The translations under genes were made by a program, and so were the position numbers. Source: Clostridiales bacterium UBA3705 (GTDB lineage: Bacteria; Bacillota_A; Clostridia; Oscillospirales; Oscillospiraceae). From it: 18,348 nt of DNA. Position 1 is the first letter of the stretch. Every line of letters begins with the position of its first letter. The notes under the pieces were generated by a model, which searched no databases, had not been told where the DNA came from, and was given only the letters and a program-made list of their open reading frames with translations. The DNA lies in assembly GCA_002372735.1 (NCBI GenBank), contig DFIE01000129.1:1-18348 (forward strand), written 5' to 3'. Positions 1,581 through 17,456 of this stretch are shown here, piece by piece.

Positions 1581-3653
1581 ATGGATATGCGTTTTTCCAA
1601 GGGGATCGTGAAGCTGCGGATCCCGATTTTAATTTTGACGCTGGTGCTGCTGGTGCCCGCTGTGCTGGGCATGCTGAACACCCACATCAACTACGATATG
1701 CTCACCTACCTGCCCCAGGAGATGGAGACCGTACAGGGCCAGGACATCCTGATGGAGGAGTTTGGCAAGGGCGCCTTCGCCTTTTTGATTGTGGAGGATA
1801 TGCCGGCAGACCAGGTGTCTGCACTGAAGGGCCGGGTGGAGCAGGTGGAACACGTGGATTCGGTCATCTGGTACGACAGCGTGCTGGACCCCTCCGTGCC
1901 CATGGAGCTGCTGCCCGACCGGCTGTACAAGGAGTTCAACACCGACAACGCCACCATGATGGCCATCTTCTTTGACAGCTCCACCTCTGCTGACGAGACC
2001 ATGGAGGCCATCCGGGAAATCCGGGCCCGGGCAGGCACGCAGTGCTTTTTATCCGGCATGTCCGCCCTGGTCACAGATCTGAAGGATCTGTGTGAGCAGG
2101 AGGAGCCCATTTACGTGGGCATTGCCGTGGCCCTGGCACTGGCCGCCATGATGCTGCTGCTGGACAACTGGCTGGTGCCACTGGTGTTTCTGGCCTCCAT
2201 TGGGGCCATGATCCTGCTGAATCTGGGCACCAACTTCTTCCTGGGAGAGATCTCCTACATCACCAAGGCCCTGTCCGCGGTGCTGCAGCTGGCCGTGACC
2301 ATGGACTACTCCATCTTCCTGTGGCACAGCTACAATGAAAACTGCCGCCACACCGACGACCACAAGGCCGCCATGGCCGGGGCCATCACCCAGACGCTCA
2401 CCTCTGTGGTGGGCAGCTCGATCACCACCATTGCCGGGTTTATCGCCTTGTGCTTCATGTCCTTTACCCTGGGCAGAGACCTGGGCCTGGTGATGGCAAA
2501 GGGCGTGCTGCTGGGCGTGATCGGCTGCGTGACGGTGCTGCCGGCGCTGATTCTGGTGCTGGATAAGCCCCTGCAGGCCATGCACCACAGGCCGCTCATC
2601 CCCGATATGAGCCGGGCGGCCAAGGGTCTGGTCAAAATCTTCCCGGTGTTTCTGGTTTTGATGCTGGTGCTGGTGCCTCCCGCCTATTACGGCTACCGGC
2701 AGACCAACCGGGAGGTCTACTACGACATGGGCGCTGCCCTGCCCCAGCAGCTGCCGGTGGTCACCGCAAACCACAAGCTCTCTGACGAGTTCGGCGTGGC
2801 CTCCACCCACATGCTGCTGGTGCGCAGCGAACTGTCGGCGGACCAAAAACGGGCCATGTGCCGGGATATGGAACAGGTGGACGGCGTGAAGTATGTACTG
2901 GGCCTGGAGACCGTGGTGGGCGAAAACGTCCCCGTGGAGTTCCTGCCCGATTCCATCACCGCCAAGCTCCGGTCCGGAAGCTGGGAGCTGATGCTGATCA
3001 ACTCCGAGTACCCGGTGGCCAGCGACACAGTGAACCAGCAAATCGATGAGCTGAATGCCATTTTAAAGCAGTATGACCCCCAGGGAATGCTCATCGGCGA
3101 GGCCCCCTGCACCAAGGATATGATTGAGACCACCGACCACGACTTCCAGGTGGTGAACCTGGTGTCCATCCTGGCCATTTTCCTGATCATCGCGGTGGTG
3201 GAAAAGAGCATCAGCCTGCCCTTTATCCTGATTGCCGTGATTGAGCTTGCCATCTTTATCAACCTGGGCCTGCCCCACTACACCGGTGTGCGCCTGCCCT
3301 TTATCGCCCCGATCTGCATTTCCACCATTCAGCTGGGCGCCACGGTGGACTACGCCATTTTGATGACCACCCGCTACAAGCAGGAGCGCCGGAGCGGCCG
3401 CTCCAGAGTCCAGGCTGTTGAGACCGCGCTGGCCACCTCCATCCCCTCGATCCTGGTGTCCGGGCTGGGCCTGTTTGCCGCCACCTTCGGTGTGGCATTG
3501 TACTCTGAGATCGATATGATCTCCTCCATGTGCGCGCTGATGGCACGGGGTGCCATTATCAGTATGTTCTGTGTTGTTTTGATCCTGCCCGCCCTGCTGA
3601 TGCTGTGCGATCCTCTGATCCGCAAAACCACCTGGGGCATAAAAGAGAATTGA
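1581..3653 (+). CDS. MMPL/RND-family transporter
   Basis: A 690-residue membrane protein of the MMPL branch of the RND superfamily, which uses the proton gradient to export lipids or other hydrophobic compounds. It shows the expected twofold architecture. A first membrane helix (about residues 11-30) is followed by an extracytoplasmic domain, a five-helix bundle with VTMDYSIFLWHSY (D242), then a second set with its own external domain and ATVDYAILMTTRYK (D590). The repeated DY motif is the proton-relay signature of the family. The ATG at 1581 is only about 3 bases after AGGA; the in-frame ATG at 1587 has better spacing, so the true start could be two codons later. The next gene follows after 13 bases and encodes the Leu-x-x-Gly heptad protein that commonly accompanies such transporters. 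The cargo is unknown. Confidence 0.92.
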   Translation: MDMRFSKGIVKLRIPILILTLVLLVPAVLGMLNTHINYDMLTYLPQEMETVQGQDILMEEFGKGAFAFLIVEDMPADQVSALKGRVEQVEHVDSVIWYDSVLDPSVPMELLPDRLYKEFNTDNATMMAIFFDSSTSADETMEAIREIRARAGTQCFLSGMSALVTDLKDLCEQEEPIYVGIAVALALAAMMLLLDNWLVPLVFLASIGAMILLNLGTNFFLGEISYITKALSAVLQLAVTMDYSIFLWHSYNENCRHTDDHKAAMAGAITQTLTSVVGSSITTIAGFIALCFMSFTLGRDLGLVMAKGVLLGVIGCVTVLPALILVLDKPLQAMHHRPLIPDMSRAAKGLVKIFPVFLVLMLVLVPPAYYGYRQTNREVYYDMGAALPQQLPVVTANHKLSDEFGVASTHMLLVRSELSADQKRAMCRDMEQVDGVKYVLGLETVVGENVPVEFLPDSITAKLRSGSWELMLINSEYPVASDTVNQQIDELNAILKQYDPQGMLIGEAPCTKDMIETTDHDFQVVNLVSILAIFLIIAVVEKSISLPFILIAVIELAIFINLGLPHYTGVRLPFIAPICISTIQLGATVDYAILMTTRYKQERRSGRSRVQAVETALATSIPSILVSGLGLFAATFGVALYSEIDMISSMCALMARGAIISMFCVVLILPALLMLCDPLIRKTTWGIKEN

Positions 3654-3666
3654 GGAGGTTTTTGTT

Positions 3667-5697
3667 ATGAAGATTACCTTGAAAAAATTGCTGGCACTGG
3701 GCTTGAGCCTGTGCCTGATCTGCGGCTGCGGCGCCATGGCTGCTGCGGCCCTGCCCCATACGGAGCCCGCCGCCCCCGTCGTGTCCGCCCGGCGTGATGA
3801 CCCGGAGACCCCCGACCAAACGGCGTCCCGGGAGCCCGACACCCTCTACGTCTTTGCAGACGCCCGGGGTGAGGTGAATAAGGTTATGGCCGGCGAGGAG
3901 ACGGTGGATGCCGACTGCCCTGTGCAGACGGAGATCACCTACACCCTCGACGGCAAGGACGTCCGGCCGGAGCAGCTGGCCGGCCAGTCCGGCAAGGTCA
4001 GCATCCGCTATGCCTACACCACTGAGGAGACCTTCACCGCCCGGCTGGAGAATGGCAGCGTGGAGCTGCCCCAGCCCTATGCGGTGCTGACCGGTCTGAT
4101 CCTGGACGATGCCCGCTTTTCCAACGTCCGCGTCAGCCACGGCAAGGTGGTAAACGACGGCAGCCGGGTGGTGGTGCTGGGCGTGGCCATGCCCGGCCTG
4201 GCCGAGGCCCTGGACGTGGAGGAGGAAACGCTGTCTATCCCCTCTGAGGTGGAAATCACCGCAGACGTCACAGACTTCCAGCTGGATATGAGCCTGTGCG
4301 TCATCACCAAGGAGCTGTTCACCGCCATTGACCCGGACCGGCTGACCAGCACCGACGAGCTGAAGGCCCAGCTGGAGCAGCTCTCTGACGGGATGGCCCA
4401 GCTGCTGGACGGGGCCGACCAGCTCTCCCAGGGGCTGGACACCCTGGAGGAGAAGTCCGGCCAGCTGGAATCCGGCGTGAACCAGATTGCCGACGGCGCC
4501 AATTCCGTCGCGGACGGGGCTGCCCAGCTGGACGCTGGCGCCGCCACCCTGCAGAGTGGGGCGGACAGCCTGTCCGCCGGGCTGAGCACCCTGGCCGGCA
4601 AGAGCAGCGATCTGAACGCCGGCGCTGCCCAGGTGTTCAACTCCCTGCTCAGTGCCGCCAACACCCAGCTTGCCGCCGCAGGGCTGCAGGTCTCCACCCT
4701 GACCATCGGCAACTATGCCTCGGTGCTGAACGGGGTTATCGCCTCGCTGGACAGCCAGGCGGTCTACGCCCAGGCACTGCAGCAGGTCACCGCTGCGGTG
4801 GAGGCCCAGCGAGACACCGTCCGGGCCGGGGTCACTGAGGCCGTCCGGGCCCAGGTGCAAGAGCAGGTAACCGAGGCCGTCCGGGCCCAGGTGAACCAGC
4901 AAGTGGCCGAGGCCGTGGAGGCCCAGGTCACCGAGCAGGTAATCCAGGCCGCCACCGGCATGAGCGCCCAGGATTACAACGCGGCTGTGGAGGCCGGGCT
5001 GGTAGATGAGGAAACCCAGGCCGCCGTACAAGCCGCCCTCACCGCCCAGCTGGGGTCTGAAGCCGTGCAGGCGCAGATTGCCGCCGCCCAGGAGGCCCAG
5101 ATGGCCACTGACCAGGTGCAGGCGCTCATCGCCGACCAGCTGGAGGCCCAAATGGTGTCTGACCAGGTGCAGCAGCTGATTGCCGACAACACCGAGGCCC
5201 AGATTGCCAAGCTGATTGCCGACAACATGGAAAGCGACGCCGTGCAGGCAAAGCTGGCCGCCGCTTCAGAGGGCGCCCGGTCCGTCATGGCGCTGAAAAC
5301 CTCTCTGGACAGCTACAACGCCTTCTACCTTGGGGTGCAGGCCTACACCGCCGGGGTAAACCAGGCCTCCCTGGGGGCTAAGGAGCTCAGCAGCGGCGCC
5401 GCCCAGGTGAAGGATGGCGCCGACGCCCTGCGGGCCGGGGCCGCCCAGCTTGCGGACGGCACCTCCACCCTCCGGTCCAATATGCCGGAGCTGCTGGACG
5501 GCGTGCATCAGCTGGCAGAGGGTGCCGCCCAGCTTGCAGACGGGCTGCACACCCTGGATGAGGAGGGCATTTCCAAGCTCACCAACCTGGGCCAGGATCA
5601 GTTGCTGCCCCTGCTGGATCGTCTCCAGGCGGTGGCAGAGGCCGCCCGGGAGGGCGAGAACGTCCGCTACCTGATGCGCACCGAATCCATCGGCTGA
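3667..5697 (+). CDS. Exported Leu-x-x-Gly heptad-repeat protein, MMPL partner
   Basis: A 676-residue secreted protein with a basic start (MKITLKK) and a hydrophobic signal segment (residues 8-28). The ICGC stretch ending at C21 could be a lipobox; cleavage by signal peptidase I after the Ala run is the alternative. A beta-rich domain (about 60-220) precedes a long helical part. Heptads of the x-x-x-Leu-x-x-Gly type run from about 236 to 330 (QLSDGMAQLLDGADQLSQGL) and again from about 569 to 640. Between them is an Ala/Gln/Val-rich region with three tandem 12-residue repeats (389-424). There is no C-terminal membrane helix, unlike YhgE/Pip proteins that share the heptads. It is co-transcribed with the MMPL gene (GAGGAGG in the 13-base gap) and is probably its extracytoplasmic accessory. 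The family is recognised; the molecular role is not known. Confidence 0.82.
   Translation: MKITLKKLLALGLSLCLICGCGAMAAAALPHTEPAAPVVSARRDDPETPDQTASREPDTLYVFADARGEVNKVMAGEETVDADCPVQTEITYTLDGKDVRPEQLAGQSGKVSIRYAYTTEETFTARLENGSVELPQPYAVLTGLILDDARFSNVRVSHGKVVNDGSRVVVLGVAMPGLAEALDVEEETLSIPSEVEITADVTDFQLDMSLCVITKELFTAIDPDRLTSTDELKAQLEQLSDGMAQLLDGADQLSQGLDTLEEKSGQLESGVNQIADGANSVADGAAQLDAGAATLQSGADSLSAGLSTLAGKSSDLNAGAAQVFNSLLSAANTQLAAAGLQVSTLTIGNYASVLNGVIASLDSQAVYAQALQQVTAAVEAQRDTVRAGVTEAVRAQVQEQVTEAVRAQVNQQVAEAVEAQVTEQVIQAATGMSAQDYNAAVEAGLVDEETQAAVQAALTAQLGSEAVQAQIAAAQEAQMATDQVQALIADQLEAQMVSDQVQQLIADNTEAQIAKLIADNMESDAVQAKLAAASEGARSVMALKTSLDSYNAFYLGVQAYTAGVNQASLGAKELSSGAAQVKDGADALRAGAAQLADGTSTLRSNMPELLDGVHQLAEGAAQLADGLHTLDEEGISKLTNLGQDQLLPLLDRLQAVAEAAREGENVRYLMRTESIG
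4831..4938 (+). repeat. Three tandem 36-bp repeats inside the heptad-protein gene
   Basis: Units start at 4831, 4867 and 4903. Each encodes a 12-residue block: VTEAVRAQVQEQ, VTEAVRAQVNQQ and VAEAVEAQVTEQ. The DNA is also strongly similar between units (GAGGCCGTCCGGGCCCAGGT is shared by the first two), which points to recent tandem duplication. Confidence 0.85.
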
Positions 5698-5705
5698 GCA
5701 CTCCC

Positions 5706-5739
5706 CCGCCGCGCCCCCGCCGGGCGCGGCGGTTTTTTT
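5706..5739 (+). terminator. Terminator of the MMPL operon
   Basis: A perfect 11-bp stem CCGCCGCGCCC / GGGCGCGGCGG with loop CCGCC is followed by seven T. It starts 8 bases after the stop codon. The T-run merges into the stop codon of the convergent Clp gene; on the minus strand the hairpin has no T-run, so it is a poor terminator for clp. Confidence 0.95.
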
Positions 5740-7849
5740 ATGAGACAGCAGGGGTCTCCGCCGGGGTAAGGAGGACCAGGCGGTCACCCCGGCACTCCAG
5801 CCGGACCTGATGCAGATCCGGCCGGGTCAGCAGCAGCCGGGCAAGGGGGTCCTCCACCAGGTTCTGCACCAGGCGGCGGACCTGGCGTGCCCCGGCGGGG
5901 TGGTGCAGACTCTTCGCCGCCAGCAGGGCGGTCACGTCCCCCGCCAGCTCCACCTGCAGCCCTGCCTGGCTGGCCCGGTCCAGTGTCAGCCCCAGCTGCT
6001 GCCGGGCCACCTGGGTCAGAGCCTCCAGGTTCAGAGGGCGCAGCTGGGCCACCGCATCCAGCCGGCTGAGCAGCTCCGGCGGGAACCAGCGCTCCAGCCG
6101 CTGCTCCAGGGGGTCGGCATTCCCCTGCCGGGCAAAGCCTGCCCCGGCCCCGGTGACGCCGGCGTTGGTGGTCATGACCACCAGGGTGTTGCGGAAATCT
6201 GCCACCCGGCCCTGGGCATCGGTCAGGCGGCCCTCCTCCAGCAGCTGGAGCAGCAGGGCCCAGACCTCCCGGTGGGCCTTTTCCAGCTCGTCCAGCAGCA
6301 CCAGGCTGTAGGGCGAGCGGCGCACCGGCTCGGTGAGCTGTCCCCCCTGGCCGTGGCCCACGTAGCCCGGGGGCGCCCCCAGCAGGCGGGAAACCGCATG
6401 GGGCTCGGCGTACTCAGACATATCCAGGCGGATCACGCTGTCGCGCCTGTGAAAGACCAGCTCCCCCAGGGCCCGGCACAGGGCGGTCTTCCCCACTCCC
6501 GTGGGCCCGCAGAGCAAAATGGCCGCCACAGGTCGGTCGGGCCCGGCCAGCCCGGCCCTGCCCCGGCGCACCGCGGCGGCCACCGCCGCAAGGGCCTCCG
6601 TCTGCCCCGCCACCCTGCGGGCCAGGGCTTCCTCCAGCCCTATAAGACCCGAGCGCTCAGCCCCGGTGAGCTCTCCCGCGGGGATCCCCGTCCGGGCCTG
6701 GAGCCGCAGGGCAATGTCCCCTGCCCCCACCTGAGCGGCAGAGCCGGTGAGCCCGGCGGCGGAGGCAGCCTCATCCACCAGGTCGATGGCCTTATCCGGC
6801 AGGTACTGGGCCGGCAGATATCGCACCGAGAGCCCTACCGCTGCCTCCAGGGCAGGATCTGTGATCCGCACCCGGTGGTGCGCCTCCAGCCCCGGGCGCA
6901 GCCCCCGGAGGATTTCCAGGGTCTCGGCCCGGGTGGGCTCCTCCAGGCGCAGGGGACGGAAGCGGCGGCTCAGGGCCCCGTCGGGTTCAATGTGCCTGCG
7001 ATACTCCTCCGGGGTGGTAGCTCCGATGAGCTGAAGCTCTGAGCGGCTGAGCGCGGGCTTGAACAGGTTGGAGGCGTCAATGGCCCCCTCCGCGGCGCCG
7101 GCCCCCACAATGGTGTGCAGCTCGTCCACAAAGAGAATCACGTTGCCTGCCCGGCGGATCTCCGCCAGCAGATCCCGGACCCGCTCCTCAAACTCCCCCC
7201 GGTACTTGGTGCCGGCAAGCAGACTGGCCAGATTGAGACTGAACAGCCGCTTGCCCGCCAGCTGGGGCGGCACCAGGCCCCGGCAGATCCGCAGGGCCAG
7301 AGCCTCCACCAGGGCGGTCTTCCCCACCCCGGGCGGGCCGATGAGGGCAGGGTTGTTCTTCTGCTTCCGGCAAAGGATCCGAATCATCTCCTCCAGCTCC
7401 GCCCGGCGGCCCAAAAACGGGTCCTGCCGGGGGCAGTCCCGGCTGAGCTCCAGGGCAAATTGTTCCAATAGTCGCAACGGTACTTCCTCCTGTATGGGTT
7501 GTGGGCGCCAGCGCAAAAGCCTGGCCCGAGACGGCCCAGGCACCAGGGCCCGGACCGCAGGGTCTTGCAGCAAAAGGCGAACCAGGGCAGGCGCATCCAG
7601 CAGGACCTCTCTGCCGGCCGCCCGGCGCAGCAGCCGGCGCAGCGCCGGTGAGAGCCCCGCGCACCGCCCCGGATCCCCCGGGGGCGGGCCGGGGCAGAGC
7701 GCTGCCAGGGCCGGCGGCATGTCCGGCCGCTCCAGCAGCGCCCGGAGCAGATCCTCCGGCGCCAGCAGCGTCCCGCCCCGGCCGGCACACAGCGCGCCGG
7801 CCCGGACAAAGAGCCGGCGCACCGGCTCGGTGAGAATCGGTTTTCGCAT
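5738..7849 (-). CDS. ClpA/ClpC-like double AAA+ unfoldase
   Basis: A 703-residue class-1 Clp/Hsp100 ATPase that unfolds proteins, probably for ClpP. An N-terminal Clp-N-like region (1-140) is much diverged. D1 has Walker A GPPGVGKT (171-178), pore loop KYRG, Walker B VILFVDE (237-243) and LSRRF. D2 has Walker A GPTGVGKT (448-455), pore loop GYVG (495-498), Walker B LVLLDE (516-521), arginine finger in LLSRLD (R596) and sensor 2 GAR. D1 passes straight to D2 with no inserted coiled coil or UVR motif, unlike ClpB or ClpC. The tripeptide AGF (570-572) sits where ClpC has its VGF ClpP-docking loop. I chose ATG 7849 because GGAGG lies 5 bases upstream and the protein then begins like a Clp-N domain; the frame stays open to 8206 but crosses the ferredoxin gene. 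No CtsR or CIRCE site was seen. Confidence 0.9.
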   Translation of the reverse strand: MRKPILTEPVRRLFVRAGALCAGRGGTLLAPEDLLRALLERPDMPPALAALCPGPPPGDPGRCAGLSPALRRLLRRAAGREVLLDAPALVRLLLQDPAVRALVPGPSRARLLRWRPQPIQEEVPLRLLEQFALELSRDCPRQDPFLGRRAELEEMIRILCRKQKNNPALIGPPGVGKTALVEALALRICRGLVPPQLAGKRLFSLNLASLLAGTKYRGEFEERVRDLLAEIRRAGNVILFVDELHTIVGAGAAEGAIDASNLFKPALSRSELQLIGATTPEEYRRHIEPDGALSRRFRPLRLEEPTRAETLEILRGLRPGLEAHHRVRITDPALEAAVGLSVRYLPAQYLPDKAIDLVDEAASAAGLTGSAAQVGAGDIALRLQARTGIPAGELTGAERSGLIGLEEALARRVAGQTEALAAVAAAVRRGRAGLAGPDRPVAAILLCGPTGVGKTALCRALGELVFHRRDSVIRLDMSEYAEPHAVSRLLGAPPGYVGHGQGGQLTEPVRRSPYSLVLLDELEKAHREVWALLLQLLEEGRLTDAQGRVADFRNTLVVMTTNAGVTGAGAGFARQGNADPLEQRLERWFPPELLSRLDAVAQLRPLNLEALTQVARQQLGLTLDRASQAGLQVELAGDVTALLAAKSLHHPAGARQVRRLVQNLVEDPLARLLLTRPDLHQVRLECRGDRLVLLTPAETPAVS

Positions 7850-7918
7850 TTCATCCTCCGACGGGGCATTGATTTCACACCGGAGTATGGCCGGCTGCAG
7901 GAGGAAATAAACGAATTG

Positions 7919-7931
7919 CGAAAATTTTTCG
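7919..7931. repeat. Palindrome between clp and ferredoxin
   Basis: CGAAAATTTTTCG is a perfect 13-base palindrome with a single central T. It lies 19 bases upstream of the ferredoxin -35 box in the divergent clp-ferredoxin intergenic region. It is placed like an operator, but no repressor is known for it. Confidence 0.3.
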
Positions 7932-7949
7932 TTTTTCCCGAAAACCCCA

Positions 7950-7977
7950 TTGCATTTTTTCAAAAACGTGCTAGAAT
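7950..7977 (+). promoter_or_regulatory. Promoter of the ferredoxin gene
   Basis: -35 TTGCAT (7950-7955), 16-base spacer, and an extended -10 TGC-TAGAAT (hexamer at 7972-7977). The ferredoxin ATG follows about 46 bases later behind AAGGAGGAAG. Confidence 0.75.
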
Positions 7978-8023
7978 ATAAGCGCAACAACAGCAACCAC
8001 ACTTCATACAAGGAGGAAGAATC

Positions 8024-8191
8024 ATGGCTTATACCATTACCGACGCTTGCGTCAAGTGCGGCACCTGTGCCGATACCTGCCCCCTGGGCATCATCTCCGA
8101 GGGCGAAGACAAGTACGAAATCGACGCTGAGCAGTGCATCGAGTGCGGCTCCTGCGCCAGCGCTTGCCCTGTTGAGGCAATCGAGCTCTAA
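8024..8191 (+). CDS. Short 2x[4Fe-4S] ferredoxin
   Basis: A 55-residue clostridial-type ferredoxin, a soluble low-potential electron carrier. It carries two classical cluster motifs: CVKCGTCADTCP near the N-terminus and CIECGSCASACP near the C-terminus, each of the form C-x2-C-x2-C-x3-C-P. This gives eight ligands for two [4Fe-4S] clusters. Length and spacing are standard for the family. The ATG at 8024 has a near-perfect site (AGGAGG) and a good promoter. A terminator-like hairpin begins 12 bases after the stop, so the gene is probably transcribed strongly on its own, with some read-through into trmN6. Its electron partners are not encoded next to it. The gene is diverged from clp. Confidence 0.96.
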   Translation: MAYTITDACVKCGTCADTCPLGIISEGEDKYEIDAEQCIECGSCASACPVEAIEL

Positions 8192-9859: not shown

Positions 9860-10870
9860 TTATTCCTCGGGGTTCAGCGGGGTCTGGTAGCCGGTGTAGT
9901 TGGGGTTGGGGCGCATACTCTCCTGCTGGGCCATGGCGCTGCCCAGCTGGGTGCGGTTGGTCTGGCTGCTGAGGAACCGCCAGGCCACAAACACCCCCAG
10001 GGCCATAAACACCAACAGCTGCAGCAGCTCGGTTGCCACATCGGACAGGAAGCCGGGGTCTGTGAACAGGGCCGCCACATAGCTGAGCGCGTCGCCCAGG
10101 GCCGCGCCGCCGTCCTTCATGAGGTAGATCGCATACTCCAGATAGAGCATCAGGGGCACCGCCAGGACGCTGACAGCCAGCACAGTGATCACCGCGCCCT
10201 TGTCCATCTTGCCCTTGAAGAGCTTGTAGCCGAACATGGCCGCAACGGGCACCAGCGCAAAGGCAAAGGCATAGATCCGCTGGATGCCGATAATGGTCAG
10301 CAGGTTTGCCGCCACGCCCACCAGCATGCCCAGAAGGGCGCCGATCAGGCCCAGGGCCCGGCTGCCGTTGTTTTCGTTTTCCTCCACCCTTTGCTGGATG
10401 GCGGCACTCTGGCTGCGCAGGGCTGTGCTGCTCACAGGCTGGAAGCTGACAAAGTTGCCCAGGGCTGTGAGGCACAGGCTGTCAGGATGGGGGGCGCCGG
10501 AGAGGATGCAGGTATCCGCCGGGGGCATCCCGTTGGCCCGCAGCACACCGGTCAGGCAATCCATACAGGAGCTCAGCCGGGCATCCGGCGCCTCGTCCTT
10601 GGGGAAACCGATGGTGGCGACCACAAAGTTTTGGTTGACCTGCTGGATGTCCAGATTCTTCAGCCCAGAGCCCTTGATGGCGGTACGCAGGGTCTTGCGC
10701 AGGGCGCCGGAGGCCTTTTCAGGCCGGACCGCCACGCACGCCGTATAGGTGGAGGCGGCATATCTTGTGAAACAGACTGCGTAGTTGCGCCAGGTGCCGA
10801 AGCATCGGCCGCCGGCAGTGGAAAAGCCCCTGACAGCCAGGGCGGAATAGATCTCTTCAGGTGTTGGCAT
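9860..10870 (-). CDS. Uncharacterised membrane protein with four cysteines
   Basis: I do not recognise this 336-residue protein. The N-terminal half (1-170) is soluble-looking, with a C-x2-C pair at 102/105 (SSCMDCL) and further cysteines at 121 and 133, spaced as in a loose metal-binding knuckle. A short polar stretch (EENENNGS, 163-170) leads into four predicted membrane helices at about 172-196, 198-216, 224-248 and 283-300. The tail is short and polar (NPNYTGYQTPLNPEE). ATG 10870 is chosen because GAGGAG lies 8 bases upstream and a consensus promoter lies behind it; the frame is open further upstream but would run through the tRNA promoter. It is convergent with rsmI and stands alone. No enzyme motif is visible. 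Confidence 0.75.
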   Translation of the reverse strand: MPTPEEIYSALAVRGFSTAGGRCFGTWRNYAVCFTRYAASTYTACVAVRPEKASGALRKTLRTAIKGSGLKNLDIQQVNQNFVVATIGFPKDEAPDARLSSCMDCLTGVLRANGMPPADTCILSGAPHPDSLCLTALGNFVSFQPVSSTALRSQSAAIQQRVEENENNGSRALGLIGALLGMLVGVAANLLTIIGIQRIYAFAFALVPVAAMFGYKLFKGKMDKGAVITVLAVSVLAVPLMLYLEYAIYLMKDGGAALGDALSYVAALFTDPGFLSDVATELLQLLVFMALGVFVAWRFLSSQTNRTQLGSAMAQQESMRPNPNYTGYQTPLNPEE

Positions 10871-10918
10871 GTTTTTCTCTCCTCTCAGTGCGGACAAAAA
10901 ACCGCATAATACGGGTTT

Positions 10919-10947
10919 ATTATACTCCCCTGCCCCAGCGGCGTCAA
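10919..10947 (-). promoter_or_regulatory. Promoter of the uncharacterised membrane protein gene
   Basis: On the minus strand, TTGACG (10942-10947), a 17-base spacer and TATAAT (10919-10924). It is close to perfect sigma-A consensus and about 48 bases from the ATG. Confidence 0.85.
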
Positions 10948-10996
10948 GGGAGTATGGCAATGGCGACGCAAAATCCGTGAAAAAGAAAAATAATGC

Positions 10997-11025
10997 TTGA
11001 CAAACAGTGGTTTTTCCTGTATAAT
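10997..11025 (+). promoter_or_regulatory. Promoter of the tRNA operon
   Basis: Exact consensus TTGACA (10997-11002), 17-base spacer, exact TATAAT (11020-11025). The first tRNA starts 46 bases after the -10 box. Confidence 0.93.
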
Positions 11026-11071
11026 TCTCATGCTGTTCGGGGCCGGTTATCGCTCCGGGCGGTGTATCCAT

Positions 11072-11147
11072 GGCGGCATAGCTCAGTTGGTAGAGCACCC
11101 GGTTCATACCCGTGTTGTCATCTGTTCGAGTCAGATTGCCGCTACCA
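11072..11147 (+). tRNA. tRNA-Met (anticodon CAU)
   Basis: A 76-base cloverleaf with encoded CCA. The acceptor GGCGGCA pairs with TGCCGCT (first pair G-U), D arm GCTC-AGTTGGTA-GAGC, anticodon loop TTCATAC with CAU, variable TTGTC, and T arm ATCTG-TTCGAGT-CAGAT. The anticodon stem CCCGG / CCGTG has one C-U mismatch at 28-42. The G-U first pair and lack of three G-C pairs in the anticodon stem argue against the initiator. Elongator Met is likely, but an Ile2 tRNA (lysidine-modified CAU) cannot be excluded by eye. Confidence 0.9.
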
Positions 11148-11222
11148 GGCCCGTTGGTCAAGTGGTTAAGACACCGCCCTTTCACGGCGGTAACATGGGT
11201 TCGAGTCCCGTACGGGTCACCA
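11148..11222 (+). tRNA. tRNA-Glu (anticodon UUC)
   Basis: A 75-base cloverleaf with encoded CCA. The acceptor GGCCCGT pairs with ACGGGTC, D arm GTCA-AGTGGTTA-AGAC, anticodon stem CCGCC/GGCGG around CTTTCAC (UUC), T arm ATGGG-TTCGAGT-CCCGT. It begins at the base directly after the CCA of tRNA-Met. Confidence 0.96.
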
Positions 11223-11224
11223 TG

Positions 11225-11260
11225 AAAAGACACTCTTGTCGTAAGACAAGAGTGTCTTTT
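11225..11260 (+). terminator. Terminator of the tRNA operon
   Basis: AAAAGACACTCTTGTC (11225-11240) pairs perfectly over 16 bp with 11245-11260 around a GTAA loop and ends in TTTT. It starts two bases after the tRNA-Glu CCA. Confidence 0.92.
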
Positions 11261-11307
11261 CAGTTATATTCGCCTTCGGCGAGTGATATTGCTGCGCAGT
11301 GATATTC
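11253..11307 (+). repeat. Direct repeat, copy 1 (55 bp)
   Basis: This copy begins in the last bases of the tRNA terminator. It continues through a hairpin CGCC-TTC-GGCG, the palindrome CTGCGCAG and three copies of the motif (C/G)AGT(G/T)ATATT. It matches 11524-11578 with a single substitution (T versus G at 11265/11536). Confidence 0.9.
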
Positions 11308-11432
11308 TCTTTGCGAGTGATATTGCACTGCGTGCAGTTTTGGAGGCGAATATAATCTCACTTTACGGCTCTGCCACAAAATATCACTGATCCGTAGGAT
11401 CAATCTCACTGCGCCGCAGGCGCAATATCACT
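11261..11432. repeat. Palindromic array of AGTGATATT motifs (REP- or MITE-like)
   Basis: Four forward motifs start at 11261, 11281, 11297 and 11315 (consensus CAGTGATATT or GAGTGATATT). Four reverse-complement motifs, AATCTCACT or AATATCACT, lie at 11354, 11380, 11402 and 11424. Between them are short hairpins: CGCCTTCGGCG, CTGCGCAG, CTGCGTGCAG, GATCCGTAGGATC and GCGCCGCAGGCGC. TTATATTCGCC (11264-11274) also pairs with GGCGAATATAA (11346-11356). The whole can fold into a branched symmetrical structure. No open reading frame of substance is present. Confidence 0.75.
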
Positions 11433-11501
11433 TGATCGGTAAGAGCACGCAGAAGGCTCGAACCGATTAGCAGGTCAAAAGGCTGCTTCCCTTGAAAGAA
11501 A
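11433..11501. other. Non-coding stretch with two small hairpins, unassigned
   Basis: The segment between the two repeat copies contains ATCGGT / ACCGAT arms around about 20 bases, then AGCAG / CTGCT around GTCAAAAGG. A tRNA D-arm-like string GGTAAGAGCAC is present, but I could not fold a cloverleaf on either strand. It may be a degenerate tRNA or part of a mobile repeat. Confidence 0.3.
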
Positions 11502-11523
11502 CACACTTGTTATGAGATAAAAA

Positions 11524-11578
11524 TGTCTTTTCAGTGATATTCGCCTTCGGCGAGTGATATTGCTGCGCAGTGATATTC
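11524..11578 (+). repeat. Direct repeat, copy 2 (55 bp)
   Basis: This is a near-identical copy of 11253-11307, offset by 271 bases. A fourth forward motif CAGTGAGATT follows at 11589. The sequence upstream (11502-11523) is a degraded counterpart of the tRNA terminator. The reverse-motif arm is missing or reduced to GGAGGCGAAGCTTCTCTCATT, which runs into the stop codon of the ABC ATPase gene. Confidence 0.88.
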
Positions 11579-11592
11579 CGCTGACGCCCAGT

Positions 11593-11615
11593 GAGATTGG
11601 GCTTCGCCCAGTCTC
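11593..11615 (-). terminator. Weak hairpin downstream of the ABC operon
   Basis: GAGATTGGGC pairs with GCCCAGTCTC around TTC (10 bp, one wobble), 16 bases past the ATPase stop codon on the minus strand. No T-run follows, so termination is uncertain; it may simply be another hairpin of the repeat element. Confidence 0.35.
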
Positions 11616-11631
11616 GGAGGCGAAGCTTCTC

Positions 11632-12300
11632 TCATTCCGGGGAGTTCTCCGGGCGGAGGCTGTCTGGGCGCGGGGTCAGCACCCCGCTGTCCAGCTCGTA
11701 AACCCGGTCACAGAGCAGGTCAATATCCTCCGCCGCGTGAGAGGCCAGGAGAATCGTCCTGCCCCGGCTGCGCAGGGCAGAGAACAGGGTACGCATCTGC
11801 TCCACCCCGGCCCGGTCCAGGCCGTTCATGGGCTCGTCCAGAATCAGGAGCTCGGGCTCCTCCATCAGGGCCTGGGCCAGGCCCAGGCGTTGGCGCATCC
11901 CCAGGGAGTACTTGCCCACCCACTTTTTGTCCCGGTCGTCCAGGCCCACCGCCCGGATTGCCCGGCGGACCTGGTCCGGCGTGATTTTGTGACGGATAGC
12001 CGCCAGATCCCACAGATTCCGATAGCCGGACTCATAGGGGATAAAGCCCGGGGTCTCAATCAGTACCCCTACGTCCGGGGCAAAATCGCAGTCTTTGCCC
12101 AGCTGCTTTCCCTGGACGGTCACCGTGCCGGCAGTAGGCACCAGCAGGCCGCAAATCAGCTTGAAGAGCACCGTCTTGCCGGAGCCGTTTCTGCCGATGA
12201 AGCCGTAGATTTTGCCGGCCTCCAGGCGCAGATCCGTGGGCTGCAGGACAACTCTCCCCTGAAATACCTTTGTCACTTGTTCCAGTCGGATGATTTCCAT
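11632..12300 (-). CDS. ABC transporter ATP-binding protein
   Basis: A 222-residue single nucleotide-binding domain that powers the membrane proteins encoded just upstream. It shows Walker A GRNGSGKT (36-43), the signature YSLGMRQRL (131-139, the variant usual in the bacitracin/lantibiotic-immunity and NatA-like group instead of LSGGQ), Walker B LLILDEP (151-157), D-loop NGLD and the switch histidine in LLASHAAED (H188). IETPGF sits at the Q-loop position, also a trait of that group. It is the last gene of a seven-gene operon, only 3 bases after the preceding stop, with GGGAG overlapping that stop. The C-terminus ends inside the repeat region, so the last residues may have been altered by it. 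Export or extrusion is more likely than import because no binding protein of import type is encoded. Confidence 0.93.
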   Translation of the reverse strand: MEIIRLEQVTKVFQGRVVLQPTDLRLEAGKIYGFIGRNGSGKTVLFKLICGLLVPTAGTVTVQGKQLGKDCDFAPDVGVLIETPGFIPYESGYRNLWDLAAIRHKITPDQVRRAIRAVGLDDRDKKWVGKYSLGMRQRLGLAQALMEEPELLILDEPMNGLDRAGVEQMRTLFSALRSRGRTILLASHAAEDIDLLCDRVYELDSGVLTPRPDSLRPENSPE

Positions 12301-12303
12301 GCT

Positions 12304-12918
12304 TTACTCCCTTCTGTTGCGGCTGCGCACAATCCGCCAGCCAAAGAATACCGTTACGGCAATGGTCAGCAGGCTCAGTCCAAGGCCCACGGGCAGCTGA
12401 AAGCCGAAGGGCTCGCCGGCTTGGCGGGTGCGCAGATAGCAGCCCCAGTTGCCGATGAACAGAAGCATCCTGTTCCCCACCAGAGCGCTGCTCATGGTGA
12501 CCGAGCAGAACACCGAGCAGAGCTGCCAGAGCAGCATCACCACAAGGCCGGCCTGTGCGTTTTGAAGCAGGCCGATGAGCAGCGTTTGCAGCGCGGCACA
12601 GGCCAGCATACAGGGCAGCCACAGCGCCCAGTCCCACAGCAGCTCTGCCCGGGAGAATTGGGGAAACAGCGCAAACACCAGCGGCAGCGGCGCAAGCCCG
12701 AACAGCGTGTTGACGCCGAGAATCCTGAAAAGCTGCCGCCGCCACCAGCGCCGCCAGCCGGCCCGCACCAGGGCAAATTGGTTTGGCCTTGCCACCTCTC
12801 TTGCCGCCGGAGCCCCTGCCAGCACATTGAAAAAGCAGGTGAGCAGCAGATATCGAATAATCTCTAGCGGGCTGCTCAGCTCAATCAGCAGCGGCAGGCC
12901 GCCTAACACAGGGCGCAT
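12304..12918 (-). CDS. ABC-associated membrane protein, third subunit
   Basis: A 204-residue protein with five or six hydrophobic segments (about 18-36, 66-86, 95-118, 122-145, 174-194) and a basic stretch RAGWRRWWRRQLFR before the second. It resembles a shortened ABC-2-type permease but has no motif I can name. ATG 12918 is chosen: GGAGG lies 7 bases upstream and the start is one base after the TGA of the previous gene, giving tight coupling. A longer reading from 12996 would overlap that gene by about 75 bases and is less likely. It ends 3 bases before the ATPase gene, so it is almost certainly part of the same transporter. Confidence 0.78.
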   Translation of the reverse strand: MRPVLGGLPLLIELSSPLEIIRYLLLTCFFNVLAGAPAAREVARPNQFALVRAGWRRWWRRQLFRILGVNTLFGLAPLPLVFALFPQFSRAELLWDWALWLPCMLACAALQTLLIGLLQNAQAGLVVMLLWQLCSVFCSVTMSSALVGNRMLLFIGNWGCYLRTRQAGEPFGFQLPVGLGLSLLTIAVTVFFGWRIVRSRNRRE

Positions 12919-12919
12919 C

Positions 12920-13759
12920 TCATTGCCTCCAAAGCGTTTCCGCCCGCCGAAGCCGGCGGCAGGACAGGGCCCACAGCAGTGCAATGTGCCCCGCAAAAAA
13001 CAAAACCGTATACGCCAGGTTGCCGACGCTCAGCTCCCGCGCCCGCAGATCCGTGAGACTCATGGGAGAGATCCACCGCAGGGCCGGGGCGGCAGACAGG
13101 CTCTCCAGGGCAAGCCGCAGCGCACAGAAGGCCACGGTAAGCAGGCCGGCCCAGCTGTGCCTGGTGTGCAGATTCAGCATGACCGCCCAGACGCCGCAGA
13201 AGCCGAACAGCAGAAGATTATACAAATAACTCACCGCAAAAACCAGCCAGGGCCCGCCGCCCTGCAGCAGCTCCATATCGGCCTCTACCCCCCGCAGCCC
13301 CACCGCCGCACCGGCACGTCCAAGCCGTGCGGCGGTTTTCATAAAAGCGCTCCATTGCCCGGAAAAGGACACCCGGGGCAGAAACCACAGCACCGAAAGC
13401 CCCAGCACAGCGCACAGCCAGAGGGCGGCAGCGGCAAACACCGCCAGGATCTGGGCGCTGAGCCACCGGCATTTATCCGTCCGCACGAGGACGAGTGCCA
13501 TCCCCTCACGGAAAAAGGGCGCGTCTGCGCACGCAAGCAAAAAGGCCGTTACCAGCAGCAGCTGGGGCAGGCGGCTCACGGTCAGCAGCAGAAAGGGCTC
13601 GGCAGCCTGCAGGGTCAGGTCGTTCTGCTGCAAATATGCCGGCACGTCTTGAAGCAGCGCCAGCAGGCTGCCCGCTCCAAGCAGCAGCGCCGCCGCGGTG
13701 CGGGGCCTGCCGAGCAGCCTGCGCAGGCTGATGGACACGACGGAAAGCAGCTCAGCCAT
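12920..13759 (-). CDS. ABC-2-like permease, second subunit
   Basis: A 279-residue membrane protein with six predicted helices (about 20-37, 55-78, 100-128, 170-196, 203-220, 247-266). A short N-terminal basic amphipathic segment (SLRRLLGRPR) is followed by the first helix, the layout of ABC-2 transporter permeases such as those of lantibiotic immunity systems. Its start overlaps the end of the first permease by 8 bases, and AAGGAGG precedes the ATG inside that gene. It ends one base before the third subunit's ATG. No substrate motif is visible; the assignment rests on topology and on the ATPase in the same operon. Confidence 0.8.
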   Translation of the reverse strand: MAELLSVVSISLRRLLGRPRTAAALLLGAGSLLALLQDVPAYLQQNDLTLQAAEPFLLLTVSRLPQLLLVTAFLLACADAPFFREGMALVLVRTDKCRWLSAQILAVFAAAALWLCAVLGLSVLWFLPRVSFSGQWSAFMKTAARLGRAGAAVGLRGVEADMELLQGGGPWLVFAVSYLYNLLLFGFCGVWAVMLNLHTRHSWAGLLTVAFCALRLALESLSAAPALRWISPMSLTDLRARELSVGNLAYTVLFFAGHIALLWALSCRRLRRAETLWRQ

Positions 13760-14513
13760 TTTGCAGCCTCCTTTGCAGGCGGAGATAGAACAGCAGGCCG
13801 CAGAGCACCACCACTGCCAGGGTGTAGACGGTCAAAAACGACACGCCGCCGTCCGGGCCGTAAATGACGTTGCTCTCTATCTGCAGCTGGCAGGGGTCCA
13901 GAAAGTATAAGCGCAGTGCCTGGGCCGGGAGACTCAGCCCGATGAGCGCTGCAAAGGGCACCGCCGCGCAGAGATACTGATTGGACACGAAGGCGGAGGC
14001 CCCGTAGGCCACTGCCGCCCACATGGCCCCGTTGGTCAGAAAGACCGCGGCGCGGAACAGGAACTGTCCCCGGCCGGAGAGCTGCATATTGAACGGGGTG
14101 ACGCCGTTGTGCAGCGAGGTGTAAAAGGAAATCGGCCCCGGCATGGTCAGCACTGTGAACAGAAAGAACAGCAAAAGACTGATAAGCGCCGTCACCGCGC
14201 CGGAGACCAGGGCAGCAACCAGGCCGCCCAGGGTGTAGCGCAGGGGCGAGGTGTGCATCATGGGGAACTGCCAGGCCCCGCCGGACTGCAGGGCATGGCG
14301 CACATAGCAGATCGGCAGCGCCGCGGCCACGGGGAGGAAATAGTTTGTCACGCCGATATAGGTGGCATACTGGAACAGATACAGAGGCCAGCAGTGAGGA
14401 AACGGAAACGGCGCAATGCTGAGCACCATTGAGGCAAACAGCGCCAGTGCCCCCAGATAGGTTGCCGGGCAGCGGAGGAGCTTTTTCAGATAGAACCGAA
14501 GCATGGCAATCAC
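13752..14513 (-). CDS. ABC-2-like permease, first subunit
   Basis: A 253-residue membrane protein with six predicted helices (about 16-36, 51-71, 94-123, 153-175, 180-199, 224-244) and the ABC-2-like start MLRFYLKKLLRCPATYLGAL. The start is ambiguous. A GTG at 14513 overlaps the lipoprotein stop as GTGA, while an ATG at 14504 (three codons later) has GGGTGAT, a match to the extended anti-Shine-Dalgarno region, at a better distance. I list the longer form. It overlaps the next permease gene by 8 bases. Together with the second and third subunits it probably forms the membrane part of the exporter. Confidence 0.8.
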   Translation of the reverse strand: MIAMLRFYLKKLLRCPATYLGALALFASMVLSIAPFPFPHCWPLYLFQYATYIGVTNYFLPVAAALPICYVRHALQSGGAWQFPMMHTSPLRYTLGGLVAALVSGAVTALISLLLFFLFTVLTMPGPISFYTSLHNGVTPFNMQLSGRGQFLFRAAVFLTNGAMWAAVAYGASAFVSNQYLCAAVPFAALIGLSLPAQALRLYFLDPCQLQIESNVIYGPDGGVSFLTVYTLAVVVLCGLLFYLRLQRRLQNG

Positions 14514-15460
14514 CCGAAGCGGATCACCTGGCCGGTGAGGGCGTTGACGGTGAAATCCATGCCGTGCCGGAAGCCGGAGTCCCCAAGCTCCCAGAATCTG
14601 CCTATAAAGCGCCAGGCGGGAACGAGCCTGCCGTTTTCGGCGTCAATGGCCAGGATCGGCTCATAGTCCTCCAGAACACAGACCCAGGGAAAGGGGTTGG
14701 CCTGCAGCTGCAGGCTCGCCAGGAGCTTTGCCTCCTCCATAGAGAAGGCGGAGGCCAGGTCGTCGGTCTGCAGGGCGGCGCCCAGCCGGAGGGGATATTC
14801 CAGGGTAATTGCCCCGTCCAGAACGCGCAGGGCGCTGCCCATGGTCAGGTCAAAGGGTTGGGTGTCCACCTTGACCCCCTGGGCAAAGAAGGCATAGCAC
14901 AGGCTCTCCCCCTCATCAGAATCCGGGGGAACCTGCTGCAGGGTGAAGCCCGAGGGGTCTGTCAGCCAGGCGGCAAGCTGCTCCGCCAGGGCGGGGGCGT
15001 CGTCCTGCCCCAGCCCCTCAAGGGACAGCCAGTTGGCGGACACCTCAACCCGGATCTCTGTGTCCCCCCGGGTCAGCACGACCCGGGTCTGCCCGGCCTC
15101 GGTTTCGGCGGACGATTCCTCCGCGTCCGGAAACAGTGCCGCCTGAAGCTCCGGCCACAGGGTGCGGCAGTCCAGGGGCGCATAGGACCAGGTGGTCCCT
15201 GTACCGTCCAGGGACGCCTCCGGGTCAATCTGCCAGAGCATTGCGGGCTGCCCCAGTCTGAGGGCCTCGGCGACCTCCTGCGGAAGGGCATCGCCGCCAG
15301 GGGCAGCTTCTGTGTATATTGCCGCTTCTGTTGACGGCGCGTCTGTCTGCGCAGCGGGGGTCTGCACGGGTGCGGCGGGGGATGGCACTGCCGGCGTGCA
15401 GGCGCACAGCGGCAGCGTAACCAGCAAAGACAGTATCAGACAAGTCAGCGTTCGTTTCAT
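14510..15460 (-). CDS. Lipoprotein of the ECF-ABC operon
   Basis: A 316-residue predicted lipoprotein. The signal segment MKRTLTCLILSLLVTLPLCA ends in the lipobox LCAC, with the lipidated cysteine at 21. A Pro/Ala/Thr-rich linker (22-50) follows. The C-terminal part, with ILAIDAENGRLVPAWRF and DFTVNALTGQVIRFG, resembles a PepSY- or YycH/YycI-like fold, in which such 'N-x-x-TG' turns recur. The start has GGAGG just upstream and lies 13 bases after the anti-sigma gene. It could be a ligand-sensing partner of the anti-sigma protein or an extracellular accessory of the transporter; nothing in the sequence decides between these. Confidence 0.82.
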   Translation of the reverse strand: MKRTLTCLILSLLVTLPLCACTPAVPSPAAPVQTPAAQTDAPSTEAAIYTEAAPGGDALPQEVAEALRLGQPAMLWQIDPEASLDGTGTTWSYAPLDCRTLWPELQAALFPDAEESSAETEAGQTRVVLTRGDTEIRVEVSANWLSLEGLGQDDAPALAEQLAAWLTDPSGFTLQQVPPDSDEGESLCYAFFAQGVKVDTQPFDLTMGSALRVLDGAITLEYPLRLGAALQTDDLASAFSMEEAKLLASLQLQANPFPWVCVLEDYEPILAIDAENGRLVPAWRFIGRFWELGDSGFRHGMDFTVNALTGQVIRFG

Positions 15461-15473
15461 GGTTCCTCCAATC

Positions 15474-16670
15474 TCAGGGCATCAGACCGGCGGACGTGTC
15501 CGGGGTGAGGACGCAGCCCTCCAGAATCTGAAGCAGGTCTTCCACAGGCAGCCTCTCCGGGCCGGTGGATTTGATGGTATAGTCCGCGCCGTCAAAGTGC
15601 CAGAGCAGCTGGGCCGCGGCGTCGGTCTGGTAGCAGGTCACGTCCATGCCCCCTGCCTGCGCCGCTGTTTTCTCATACTCCCGGGCGGAGAGCTCCCAAT
15701 CCTCCCGGATGTCGTCGTTTCTCCCCTGGGGGGCGATGCTCAGCTCCAGGGTACTGGGTGGGTTGGTCTCGCCCTGCAGCCAGAGGAAAAAATACTCTCC
15801 GTTTGTGTATTGCAGCCCCCGGCTTTGGGTGTAGCCCTCCGGCGCGGAGGCGGGAAAGAGAATCCGGGTCAGCCCCAGCCGGGGCAAAGGCAGGACAACG
15901 GCGGGCACGGACTCTACGGTGATGTATTTGTCGATCCGCTCCACCGGGGCAATACTCTCCAGGATTGCCCCCAGGGTCTGCTCCGACATGGCGTAGTTGA
16001 CCTCCATGGTGAACAGATAGTCGCCGTCCGACCAGTAGAGCTTTTGCAGGCCGGGCCGCTGGGCGCGGCTGCCCCCGGCCTCCAGCACAGAGGGGGCAAC
16101 CGTGATGCGCTGCACCCAAAAGCCGCCCAGCATCAGCTGGTCCACCGTCCAGGCCGCGTCAAAGCCGGTGGACACAGAGTCCAGGGGCTGCTCCACGGTG
16201 TAGCCCGGTGCCGCGTGCTGCCGGAACACCACGTAAGACCCGTCCCCGCTCCGCCACTGCAGCAGGGTATCCCTGCGGAAGGACGGCGTCTGCCCGGCTG
16301 TCACCTGCAGAGGAATCGGGTCCCAGGCCCGGGCGGGCAGCAGGGGGACATAGCAGGTTTCAATGGTCTTTGGCGCGTCCGGATTCATACGGACGTCCAG
16401 GAAGACGTCCATGGCGCCCTCCCGGGGATCTGCGGGCTTCCCCTCCCGGACATGAAGGCCGGATACATAGGTCTGTCCGGTCCGCAGGCCGAAGAGGGCG
16501 TTCCGGATCGCCGGGACCCCGAACACCGTGGTGGACAGCAGCACGATCACCGCCGCAGCCATGAGAATCCCCATCCGGAGCCGGTGGGTGCGGGGCGCGC
16601 GCCTCTCGCTGTGCTCCAGATCCGCGGCATCGGCTGCCCCGATGGCAGAGAGCAATTCCAAGGCTGTCAT
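15474..16670 (-). CDS. One-pass anti-sigma-like protein with DUF4367-like ectodomain
   Basis: A 398-residue protein encoded directly after the ECF sigma gene with a 4-base ATGA overlap, the standard position of an anti-sigma factor. The cytoplasmic part is very short (about 32 residues, starting MTALELLSAIGAADAADLEH) and lacks the H-x3-C-x2-C zinc motif. A single membrane helix (33-52, MGILMAAAVIVLLSTTVFGV) leads to a large outside part. There, two stretches of the form 'YLFTMEVNY...LGAILESI' and 'LLWHFDGADYTIKS...LLQILEGC' resemble the repeated DUF4367-type unit that I associate with Clostridial anti-sigma proteins. It probably holds the sigma factor at the membrane and senses an external signal. 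The family assignment is moderate; the role is inferred from position. Confidence 0.75.
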   Translation of the reverse strand: MTALELLSAIGAADAADLEHSERRAPRTHRLRMGILMAAAVIVLLSTTVFGVPAIRNALFGLRTGQTYVSGLHVREGKPADPREGAMDVFLDVRMNPDAPKTIETCYVPLLPARAWDPIPLQVTAGQTPSFRRDTLLQWRSGDGSYVVFRQHAAPGYTVEQPLDSVSTGFDAAWTVDQLMLGGFWVQRITVAPSVLEAGGSRAQRPGLQKLYWSDGDYLFTMEVNYAMSEQTLGAILESIAPVERIDKYITVESVPAVVLPLPRLGLTRILFPASAPEGYTQSRGLQYTNGEYFFLWLQGETNPPSTLELSIAPQGRNDDIREDWELSAREYEKTAAQAGGMDVTCYQTDAAAQLLWHFDGADYTIKSTGPERLPVEDLLQILEGCVLTPDTSAGLMP

Positions 16671-17224
16671 GGCAGATATCCCTCCTTTTTCAGATGTGCC
16701 TTCAGCTTTTTCCTTGTGCGGGAGAGCAGATTCAGCACGTTGCTCTGGCGGATGCCATAGCGCCGGGCAATCTGTTCGGTGGTCTCAAAGAAGAAATACC
16801 GGCGCAGAAAGACGTCCCGCTCCCTTTGCCCGCAGGCAGCCAGGAACCGGCGGATGCTCTGCTCCAGCTCCTTGTCCTCCAGCTGCTGCTGGGGCAGCGG
16901 CGGGCCGCCGGCACACTCGGCAAGCTCCTCCAGGGCAAGCTCCAGGCTGCTGCCCCGCTTTTGGGCATGGAGCCTGCGCCAGCGGTCAATGGCCAGGTTG
17001 CGGGTGATTTTGGCAAAAAAGGGACGCAGCCGGGGCGGCCGCTCCGGCGGGATGGCGTTCCAGGCGTGGAGCCAGGTATCCGAAAGGGTCTCCTGGGCGT
17101 CCTCGTGATTTGCCAGCACCCCCATGGCAATTTTGTAGCAATATGCCCCGTAGCACTGCTGGGAGGCCGCGATGGCCGCCTCCTGCCGGGCAAAATACAG
17201 GGCAACAATCTCAGCATCCTCCAT
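16667..17224 (-). CDS. ECF-type RNA polymerase sigma factor
   Basis: A 185-residue group-4 sigma-70 factor that directs transcription of a small regulon. Region 2 (about 20-88) contains NHEDAQETLSDTWLHAWNAI and FFAKITRNLAIDRWRR, and region 4 (about 115-178) contains RERDVFLRRYFFFETTEQIA and a helix-turn-helix of the form YGIRQSNVLNLLSRTRKKLK. There is no region 1.1 or 3. ATG 17224 is chosen because AGGAGG lies 8 bases upstream; a GTG at 17230 is only 2 bases from that site. It is the first gene of a seven-gene minus-strand operon and overlaps the anti-sigma gene by ATGA. It probably controls this operon, but no clear ECF promoter was found in front of it. Confidence 0.93.
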   Translation of the reverse strand: MEDAEIVALYFARQEAAIAASQQCYGAYCYKIAMGVLANHEDAQETLSDTWLHAWNAIPPERPPRLRPFFAKITRNLAIDRWRRLHAQKRGSSLELALEELAECAGGPPLPQQQLEDKELEQSIRRFLAACGQRERDVFLRRYFFFETTEQIARRYGIRQSNVLNLLSRTRKKLKAHLKKEGYLP

Positions 17225-17253: not shown

Positions 17254-17282
17254 GTTATAACGCAAACCGGAGGGAAGTTCTA
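17254..17282 (-). promoter_or_regulatory. Possible promoter of the ECF-ABC operon
   Basis: On the minus strand TATAAC (17254-17259) lies 17 bases from TAGAAC (17277-17282), a weak -35. The string GAACTT with CGTT 12 bases on looks like ECF promoter elements but the spacing is too short. The start codon is about 30 bases downstream. Confidence 0.3.
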
Positions 17283-17456
17283 TCCGTTTTTTCAAAATTT
17301 GCGAAAATTCCCCATATGGTCAGATTCCATTTACAAAACGTTCAATCTCTGTTTTCGATTCATTCATGATTTCGTCACAATTGTCCGGTATGATATGGCT
17401 GTAAGTTGAAGCGACCGACAAACCGCTGTACTTTTCATTTCTTCTCTTCTTTTCTC

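Follow-up and report, generated by a model that had tools for sequence, protein, structure and literature searches.

A putative autoregulated envelope-defence operon combining an ECF sigma factor, a YycI-like lipoprotein and a small ABC exporter in a clostridial bacterium

The operon sigY-yxlCDEFG of Bacillus subtilis combines an extracytoplasmic function (ECF) sigma factor with an ATP-binding cassette (ABC) exporter. In the literature, sigY is named together with the antisigma genes yxlC, yxlD and yxlE (PMC4326333), and YxlF2G2 is given as an exporter of unknown function (PMC11466899). CprABC of Clostridioides difficile is described as one ATPase and two small permeases with a neighbouring lipoprotein, and BceAB as having a single ten-helix permease of ~630-650 aa with a large extracellular loop, both under two-component control (PMC5786555). 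The YycI and YycH regulators of the WalK (YycG) kinase and the uncharacterised protein EUBREC_2869 of E. rectale (PDB 5coz) also belong to the closest known systems. Here we describe a seven-gene operon on the minus strand of an 18,348-nt stretch of Clostridiales bacterium UBA3705 (contig DFIE01000129.1, the whole stretch being referred to as the window). With moderate confidence we read it as a self-contained, autoregulated envelope-defence operon, in which an ECF switch controls the joint production of a small ABC exporter and a YycI-like regulator at the cell surface.

The seven tightly packed open reading frames (ORFs) extend from the GTG start of the sigma gene to the stop of the ATPase gene (17230-11632), with a largest gap of 13 nt, in the order ECF sigma, anti-sigma-like protein, lipoprotein, permease 1, permease 2, permease 3 and ABC ATPase. 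The sigma gene (16667-17224, 185 aa from ATG 17224; GTG 17230 upstream is also possible) overlaps the gene of the anti-sigma-like one-pass membrane protein (15474-16670, 398 aa) by 4 nt, and a spacer of 13 nt leads to the lipoprotein gene (14510-15460, 316 aa). This in turn overlaps permease 1 (13752-14513, 253 aa) by 4 nt, given a GTG start at 14513; the in-frame ATG at 14504 (250 aa) fits most homologue starts better in the alignment. Permease 1 and permease 2 (12920-13759, 279 aa) overlap by 8 nt, permease 3 (12304-12918, 204 aa) follows after a 1-nt gap if it starts at ATG 12918, its most likely start (TTG 12996 in the ORF list), and 3 nt separate it from the ATPase gene (11632-12300, 222 aa). 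Spacing and promoter together suggest a single transcript. An earlier sequence-only reading had proposed one operon of seven packed genes, and this is borne out: all ORFs are in place, and their order recurs in relatives. Its 'three six-helix' permeases are three membrane proteins indeed, the helix number being approximate, as hydropathy gives five segments for permease 1, six for permease 2 and five for the short permease 3.

Compared with the known systems, the operon resembles CprABC-KR and LanFEG in its one ATPase, two small ABC-2-type permeases of about six helices, adjacent lipoprotein and control by a surface sensor. CprABC is the closest working analogue, with the same parts list and a two-component system (PMC5786555). 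In contrast to these systems, the window has an ECF sigma/anti-sigma pair instead of a two-component system (which some distant relatives do have), an extra third permease and a YycI-like lipoprotein. The ATPase carries Walker A, signature and Walker B motifs (PF00005, 102.7 bits), and its best NCBIfam model is TIGR03740 (lantibiotic protection), the LanF-type model, with 168.9 bits and the next model at 127.0. TIGR03740 is also the best model for the ATPases of the related loci L001 (191.3 bits) and L144 (191.1 bits), and leads the next model by 42 to 58 bits in the three ATPases tested. Of the lantibiotic-type ATPase proposed earlier, the nearest named subfamily can thus be retained, membership cannot: all scores are well under the cutoff. 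NCBIfam also holds models for LanE and LanG; none of the window's permeases matches these or any other NCBIfam model. The operon would work like CprABC/LanFEG, yet its proteins do not pass the sequence models of those families. BceAB differs more obviously, its single ten-helix permease standing against three permeases of 204-279 aa in the window.

The closest regulatory precedent is SigY of B. subtilis, where, by gene content, the genes of an ABC exporter likewise share one operon with an ECF sigma factor and its membrane anti-sigma components. That operon has one permease against three here and is not known to contain a DUF4367 anti-sigma or a YycI-like lipoprotein. The sequence-only reading, which had called the wiring to an ECF sigma less usual, missed this precedent; its distinction from the two-component control of CprABC and BceAB stands (PMC5786555). 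In the open-licence literature we found no paper on this arrangement, nor on DUF4367, which is weak evidence of absence.

The sigma factor scores 76.6 bits with TIGR02937 (cutoff 42.9) and matches Pfam Sigma70_r2 and Sigma70_r4 above their cutoffs; it contains regions 2 and 4 only and is followed by a one-pass membrane protein, as in ECF/anti-sigma pairs. This protein is predicted to have ~33 cytoplasmic residues, a helix near residues 34-52 as its single hydrophobic segment, and an ectodomain with PF14285 (DUF4367; 24.6 bits, cutoff 22.1). Its N-terminus (columns 1-52) is the part common with anti-sigma-like proteins of other ectodomains (hhalign probability 89.8), and a PDB sequence search returned no relative of it at E 0.1 or better. 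The sensor unit of ECF sigma and one-pass anti-sigma-like protein is supported by the relatives, as a sigma ORF lies immediately upstream in 16 of the 25 loci found by the anti-sigma profile. The unit is separable from the pump: L054 and L055 carry sigma and anti-sigma without a pump in 8.4 and 19 kb, so the wiring is not exclusive from the side of the sigma factor. In L004, a free-standing, membrane-anchored copy of the DUF4367-type ectodomain (7457-8098) lies within the operon and gives 148 bits to the anti-sigma profile.

Upstream of the sigma gene we found a candidate autoregulatory ECF promoter (GATAGAA-N12-TTGCGT, 17260-17284, minus strand). The pattern GATAGAA-N12-YTGYGT and a strong ribosome site are common to the upstream regions of six sigma genes (window, L001, L002, L003, L004 and L057), where the pattern occupies the same place in sequences that are otherwise poorly alignable. 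It occurs once in the window and never in 200 shuffles. Four genomes of relatives contain 1, 2, 1 and 1 matches, of which one in every genome precedes sigma, with ~0.26 expected per genome (our own arithmetic, assuming even base use), and the reversed pattern gives no match in any of the four. As the pattern was derived from these same loci, its rarity and not its presence is the evidence. In a check for a regulon, the second match, in genome G002, proved to lie near unrelated genes. The strict pattern is absent upstream in L044, L045, L049, L054, L055 and L059.

The lipoprotein has no Pfam family, and its predicted model resembles the extracytoplasmic regulators YycI, YycH and YpeB; a solute-binding role is for this reason not favoured. 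Its profile, searched against solved structures, found LpqN alone (E 0.1), over the signal region. From YycI and YycH of the WalK kinase it differs in being lipid-anchored and encoded in an ECF/ABC operon, and no WalK/YycG-type kinase was recognised among the window genes scanned. In L044, the lipoprotein domain is built into a one-pass membrane protein encoded directly after the sigma factor (hhalign probability 99.7), i.e. joined, in contrast to YycI/YycH, to the protein in the anti-sigma position. Copy numbers range from one to four across the loci, with four tandem copies in L001 and two in L002. Kinship between the lipoprotein and the anti-sigma ectodomain was considered and rejected (hhalign 0.4).

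Permease 1 has a predicted fold resembling the NosY, CcmB and PmtD exporter fold, i.e. that of the small 'type V' ABC exporter permeases (NosY/PmtD/ABCG-like). By sequence it gives a sub-threshold MerE match alone in Pfam, a MerE model at E 0.67 alone in NCBIfam, and no relative in the PDB at E 0.1 or better. Permeases 2 and 3 have no Pfam and no NCBIfam family, and eleven further permeases from relatives have no NCBIfam family either. Recent duplication of the three permeases has no support (pairwise hhalign probabilities 6.8, 0.4 and 3.1). Taken together, the new points are the predicted YycI/YycH-like lipoprotein fold, the L044 fusion, the copy-number range and the predicted NosY/PmtD-like fold of permease 1. 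Other origins were also considered: permease 1 is unmatched in 72,556 plasmid records, no relative turned up in viral contigs, two phage records each cover 2% of the query inside the ATPase gene, and PADLOC matches concern the ATPase alone (best mad3, 83.3 bits), reflecting generic ATPase likeness; we rejected mobile, viral, phage and anti-phage explanations.

Gene order was compared in relatives, whose genomes include metagenome-assembled ones and whose contig edges cut L047, L050, L051, L052, L057 and L130. Protein searches, in which the best ~8,000 candidates were scored, returned at least 9 permease 1, at least 35 anti-sigma and at least 3 lipoprotein sequences, counts that include the cluster of the window itself. 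Five loci came from scanning genome contigs with the anti-sigma alignment. Among 300 genomes, permease 1 matches occur in 10 and anti-sigma matches, mostly weak and N-terminal, in 19. The complete order recurs in L001, L002 and L045 (the last with another anti-sigma-like protein), and L046 and L047 keep it from the lipoprotein through the ATPase. In L004 permease 1 stands ahead of the lipoprotein, followed by the extra membrane-anchored DUF4367-type protein, after which come a single lipoprotein, permease 2, permease 3 and the ATPase; L003 stops after the anti-sigma, and L005, at the end of its contig, matches weakly. This recurrence is beyond chance. L046 lacks a sigma gene upstream and has BlaI, BlaR1-type and trypsin-like genes there, with a weak sigma-like ORF (29 bits) downstream; L045 carries both a sigma factor and a BlaI/BlaR1 pair.

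Profile searches extended the family further, with matches in 21 of 394 genomes of the order (23 places) and 28 of 391 of the class (30 places). From these, 32 regions were fetched, and in all 48 modules were mapped, 8 of them in the window's clade and 40 outside it. Permeases 1 and 2 are firmly tied to the distant modules (hhalign 99.2 and 99.1), the distant lipoproteins weakly to the window's (80.4 over 51 columns), and permease 3 is restricted to the clade (>60 bits in 7 of 8 modules there, in 0 of 40 elsewhere). A sigma match of at least 50 bits lies in range of 6 of the 8 clade modules, the exceptions being L046 and L047 (the latter cut by the contig end), and of only 3 of the 40 distant ones (L049, L121, L124). 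Regular occurrence of the pump without the sigma unit, named by the earlier sequence-only reading as refuting it, is thus seen in the wider family, where 37 of 40 modules have no strong sigma match nearby, and not in the window's own clade. Instead, BlaI and BlaR1 both lie near L049, L118, L129 and L136, a GHKL kinase (GHKL/LytTR) near L048, L053, L116 and L145, and an OmpR-type kinase near L126, L128, L132 and L136 (4 of 40 each). In a FastTree phylogeny of 47 modules (L138 was left out as it gave no permease 1 call), the window's clade has a support of 1.0 and sigma occurs at four separate places, consistent with repeated regulator exchange; deep branches are poorly supported. From these comparisons, the window pump appears as one branch of a broad, unnamed clostridial lipoprotein-permease-permease-ATPase module found beside varied sensors.

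Several distant modules have further features. Small proteins of ~124-163 aa with signal-like N-termini adjoin them, several ending in a G-x-W/F-x-P-like motif; these are possibly bacteriocin-like or surface proteins. L144 contains the whole module (small secreted protein, lipoprotein, permeases, ATPase) in tandem at 3326-7629 and 9885-14190, the two being nearly identical in the tree, with transposase-looking ORFs (by eye) between them. In L128, L129, L130 and L131 the pump module is followed by a second ATPase and a two-membrane-segment protein, with an FtsX/MacB-looking permease at the far end (names assigned by eye), an arrangement that by eye looks like an extended operon. In L049, a BlaR1-type M56 protein with a C-terminal peptidase M23 domain (5509-6942) lies beside BlaI and adjoins the sigma unit and the pump module.

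We propose that, at rest, the DUF4367 anti-sigma would keep the ECF sigma factor at the membrane through its short cytoplasmic end. On the outer side, the YycI/YycH-like lipoprotein would serve as a sensor or regulator in contact with one or more of three partners, namely the ligand, the pump and the ectodomain of the anti-sigma. Sigma may be released, by proteolysis or a change of shape, in response to a compound that acts on the membrane or the cell wall; an antimicrobial peptide from the host or from competing gut bacteria is the most likely one. The freed sigma would then drive transcription of the operon that encodes it, using the GATAGAA-N12-YTGYGT promoter, so that sensor and pump would be made together. 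The pump, presumably two ATPases with mixed small exporter-type permeases, would expel the compound from the membrane, and the system would reset as the signal falls. The gene set with its order and conservation, the promoter motif, the predicted folds of lipoprotein and permease 1 and the L044 fusion are what the data show, whereas substrate class, release step and pump composition are inferred. The likeliest purpose is to defend the cell against membrane-active peptides, given the nearest model of the ATPase and the pairing of pump relatives with other surface-sensing systems (BlaI/BlaR1, GHKL/LytTR, OmpR-type). Several observations weigh against it. The ATPase score is far below the TIGR03740 cutoff of 309.75; the permeases match neither LanE/LanG nor any other NCBIfam model; NosY and CcmB, whose solved folds come closest to the permease, do not pump peptides, and no Foldseek match reached E 0.001. 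L044 and L045 possess a sigma factor without the strict promoter pattern. The N-terminus of the L044 fusion lacks a Pfam family and does not align with the anti-sigma of the window (probability 0.4), and the fusion is therefore taken as an anti-sigma from its position. Finally, 27 of the 40 distant modules have no strong regulator in range; 'no regulator' is to be read here as a lower bound, as regulators were called with small home-made profiles within 7 kb towards lower and 5 kb towards higher coordinates.

The NosY- and CcmB-like folds could also point not to a drug pump but to an energy-transducing machine of the NosDFY/CcmAB kind, in which ATP use in the membrane drives work on the extracytoplasmic lipoprotein, e.g. 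in the upkeep of cell wall or surface proteins. However, how such folds rank by structure says little about substrate, and the models closest to the ATPase are those of lantibiotic protection, so that we regard this as unlikely. Rather improbable is also that the cell uses the pump to export, or to protect itself from, a product of its own, such as a bacteriocin-like secreted protein, which the sigma unit would sense: eleven of the small signal-bearing proteins do adjoin distant modules in ten loci (L053, L117, L120, L122, L123, L124 (twice), L127, L139, L144 and L146), but no such gene was recognised beside the window operon, none of six scanned has a Pfam family above cutoff, and they look Sec-secreted and would therefore not need the pump for export. 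Similarly improbable is a true LanFEG/CprABC lantibiotic system rewired to an ECF sigma. The parts list shared with CprABC (PMC5786555) and TIGR03740 as best ATPase model speak for it. Against it speak the ATPase score under the cutoff, the permeases scanned without NCBIfam match and a scan of the other window genes, in which no genes for lanthipeptide synthesis were recognised.

Beyond the envelope-defence operon itself, we tentatively suggest, as a possible though doubtful extension, that the operon belongs to a widespread and hitherto unrecognised clostridial sense-and-expel cassette. The YycI-like lipoprotein would be the shared receptor of a small ABC exporter, plugged into whichever switch is available (ECF anti-sigma, BlaR1, GHKL kinase or OmpR-type kinase); in the ECF branch it would report directly to the anti-sigma, and a third permease would have been added. 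Such reporting would explain the L044 fusion and, by a wider ligand range, the four diverged lipoprotein copies in L001. If true, an unnamed peptide-defence cassette is present in many gut Clostridia and its gene context reveals the sensor, the YycI/YycH fold, as ectodomain of an ECF switch, acquires a function beyond the WalK kinase, and the defined promoter motif makes the ECF branch directly testable by reporter.

Elsewhere in the window, an MMPL-family transporter (PF03176) is followed by a 676-aa secreted repeat-rich protein without a Pfam family (1581-5697). Between two tRNA genes and the ATPase stop lies a repeat array (11223-11634) with an 83-nt direct repeat (88%), a 45-nt repeat (73%), many AGTGATATT-flanked palindromes and a perfect 18-bp hairpin; inside it, positions 11261-11328 match Rfam Gut-1 with 50.1, just at the gathering score of 50.

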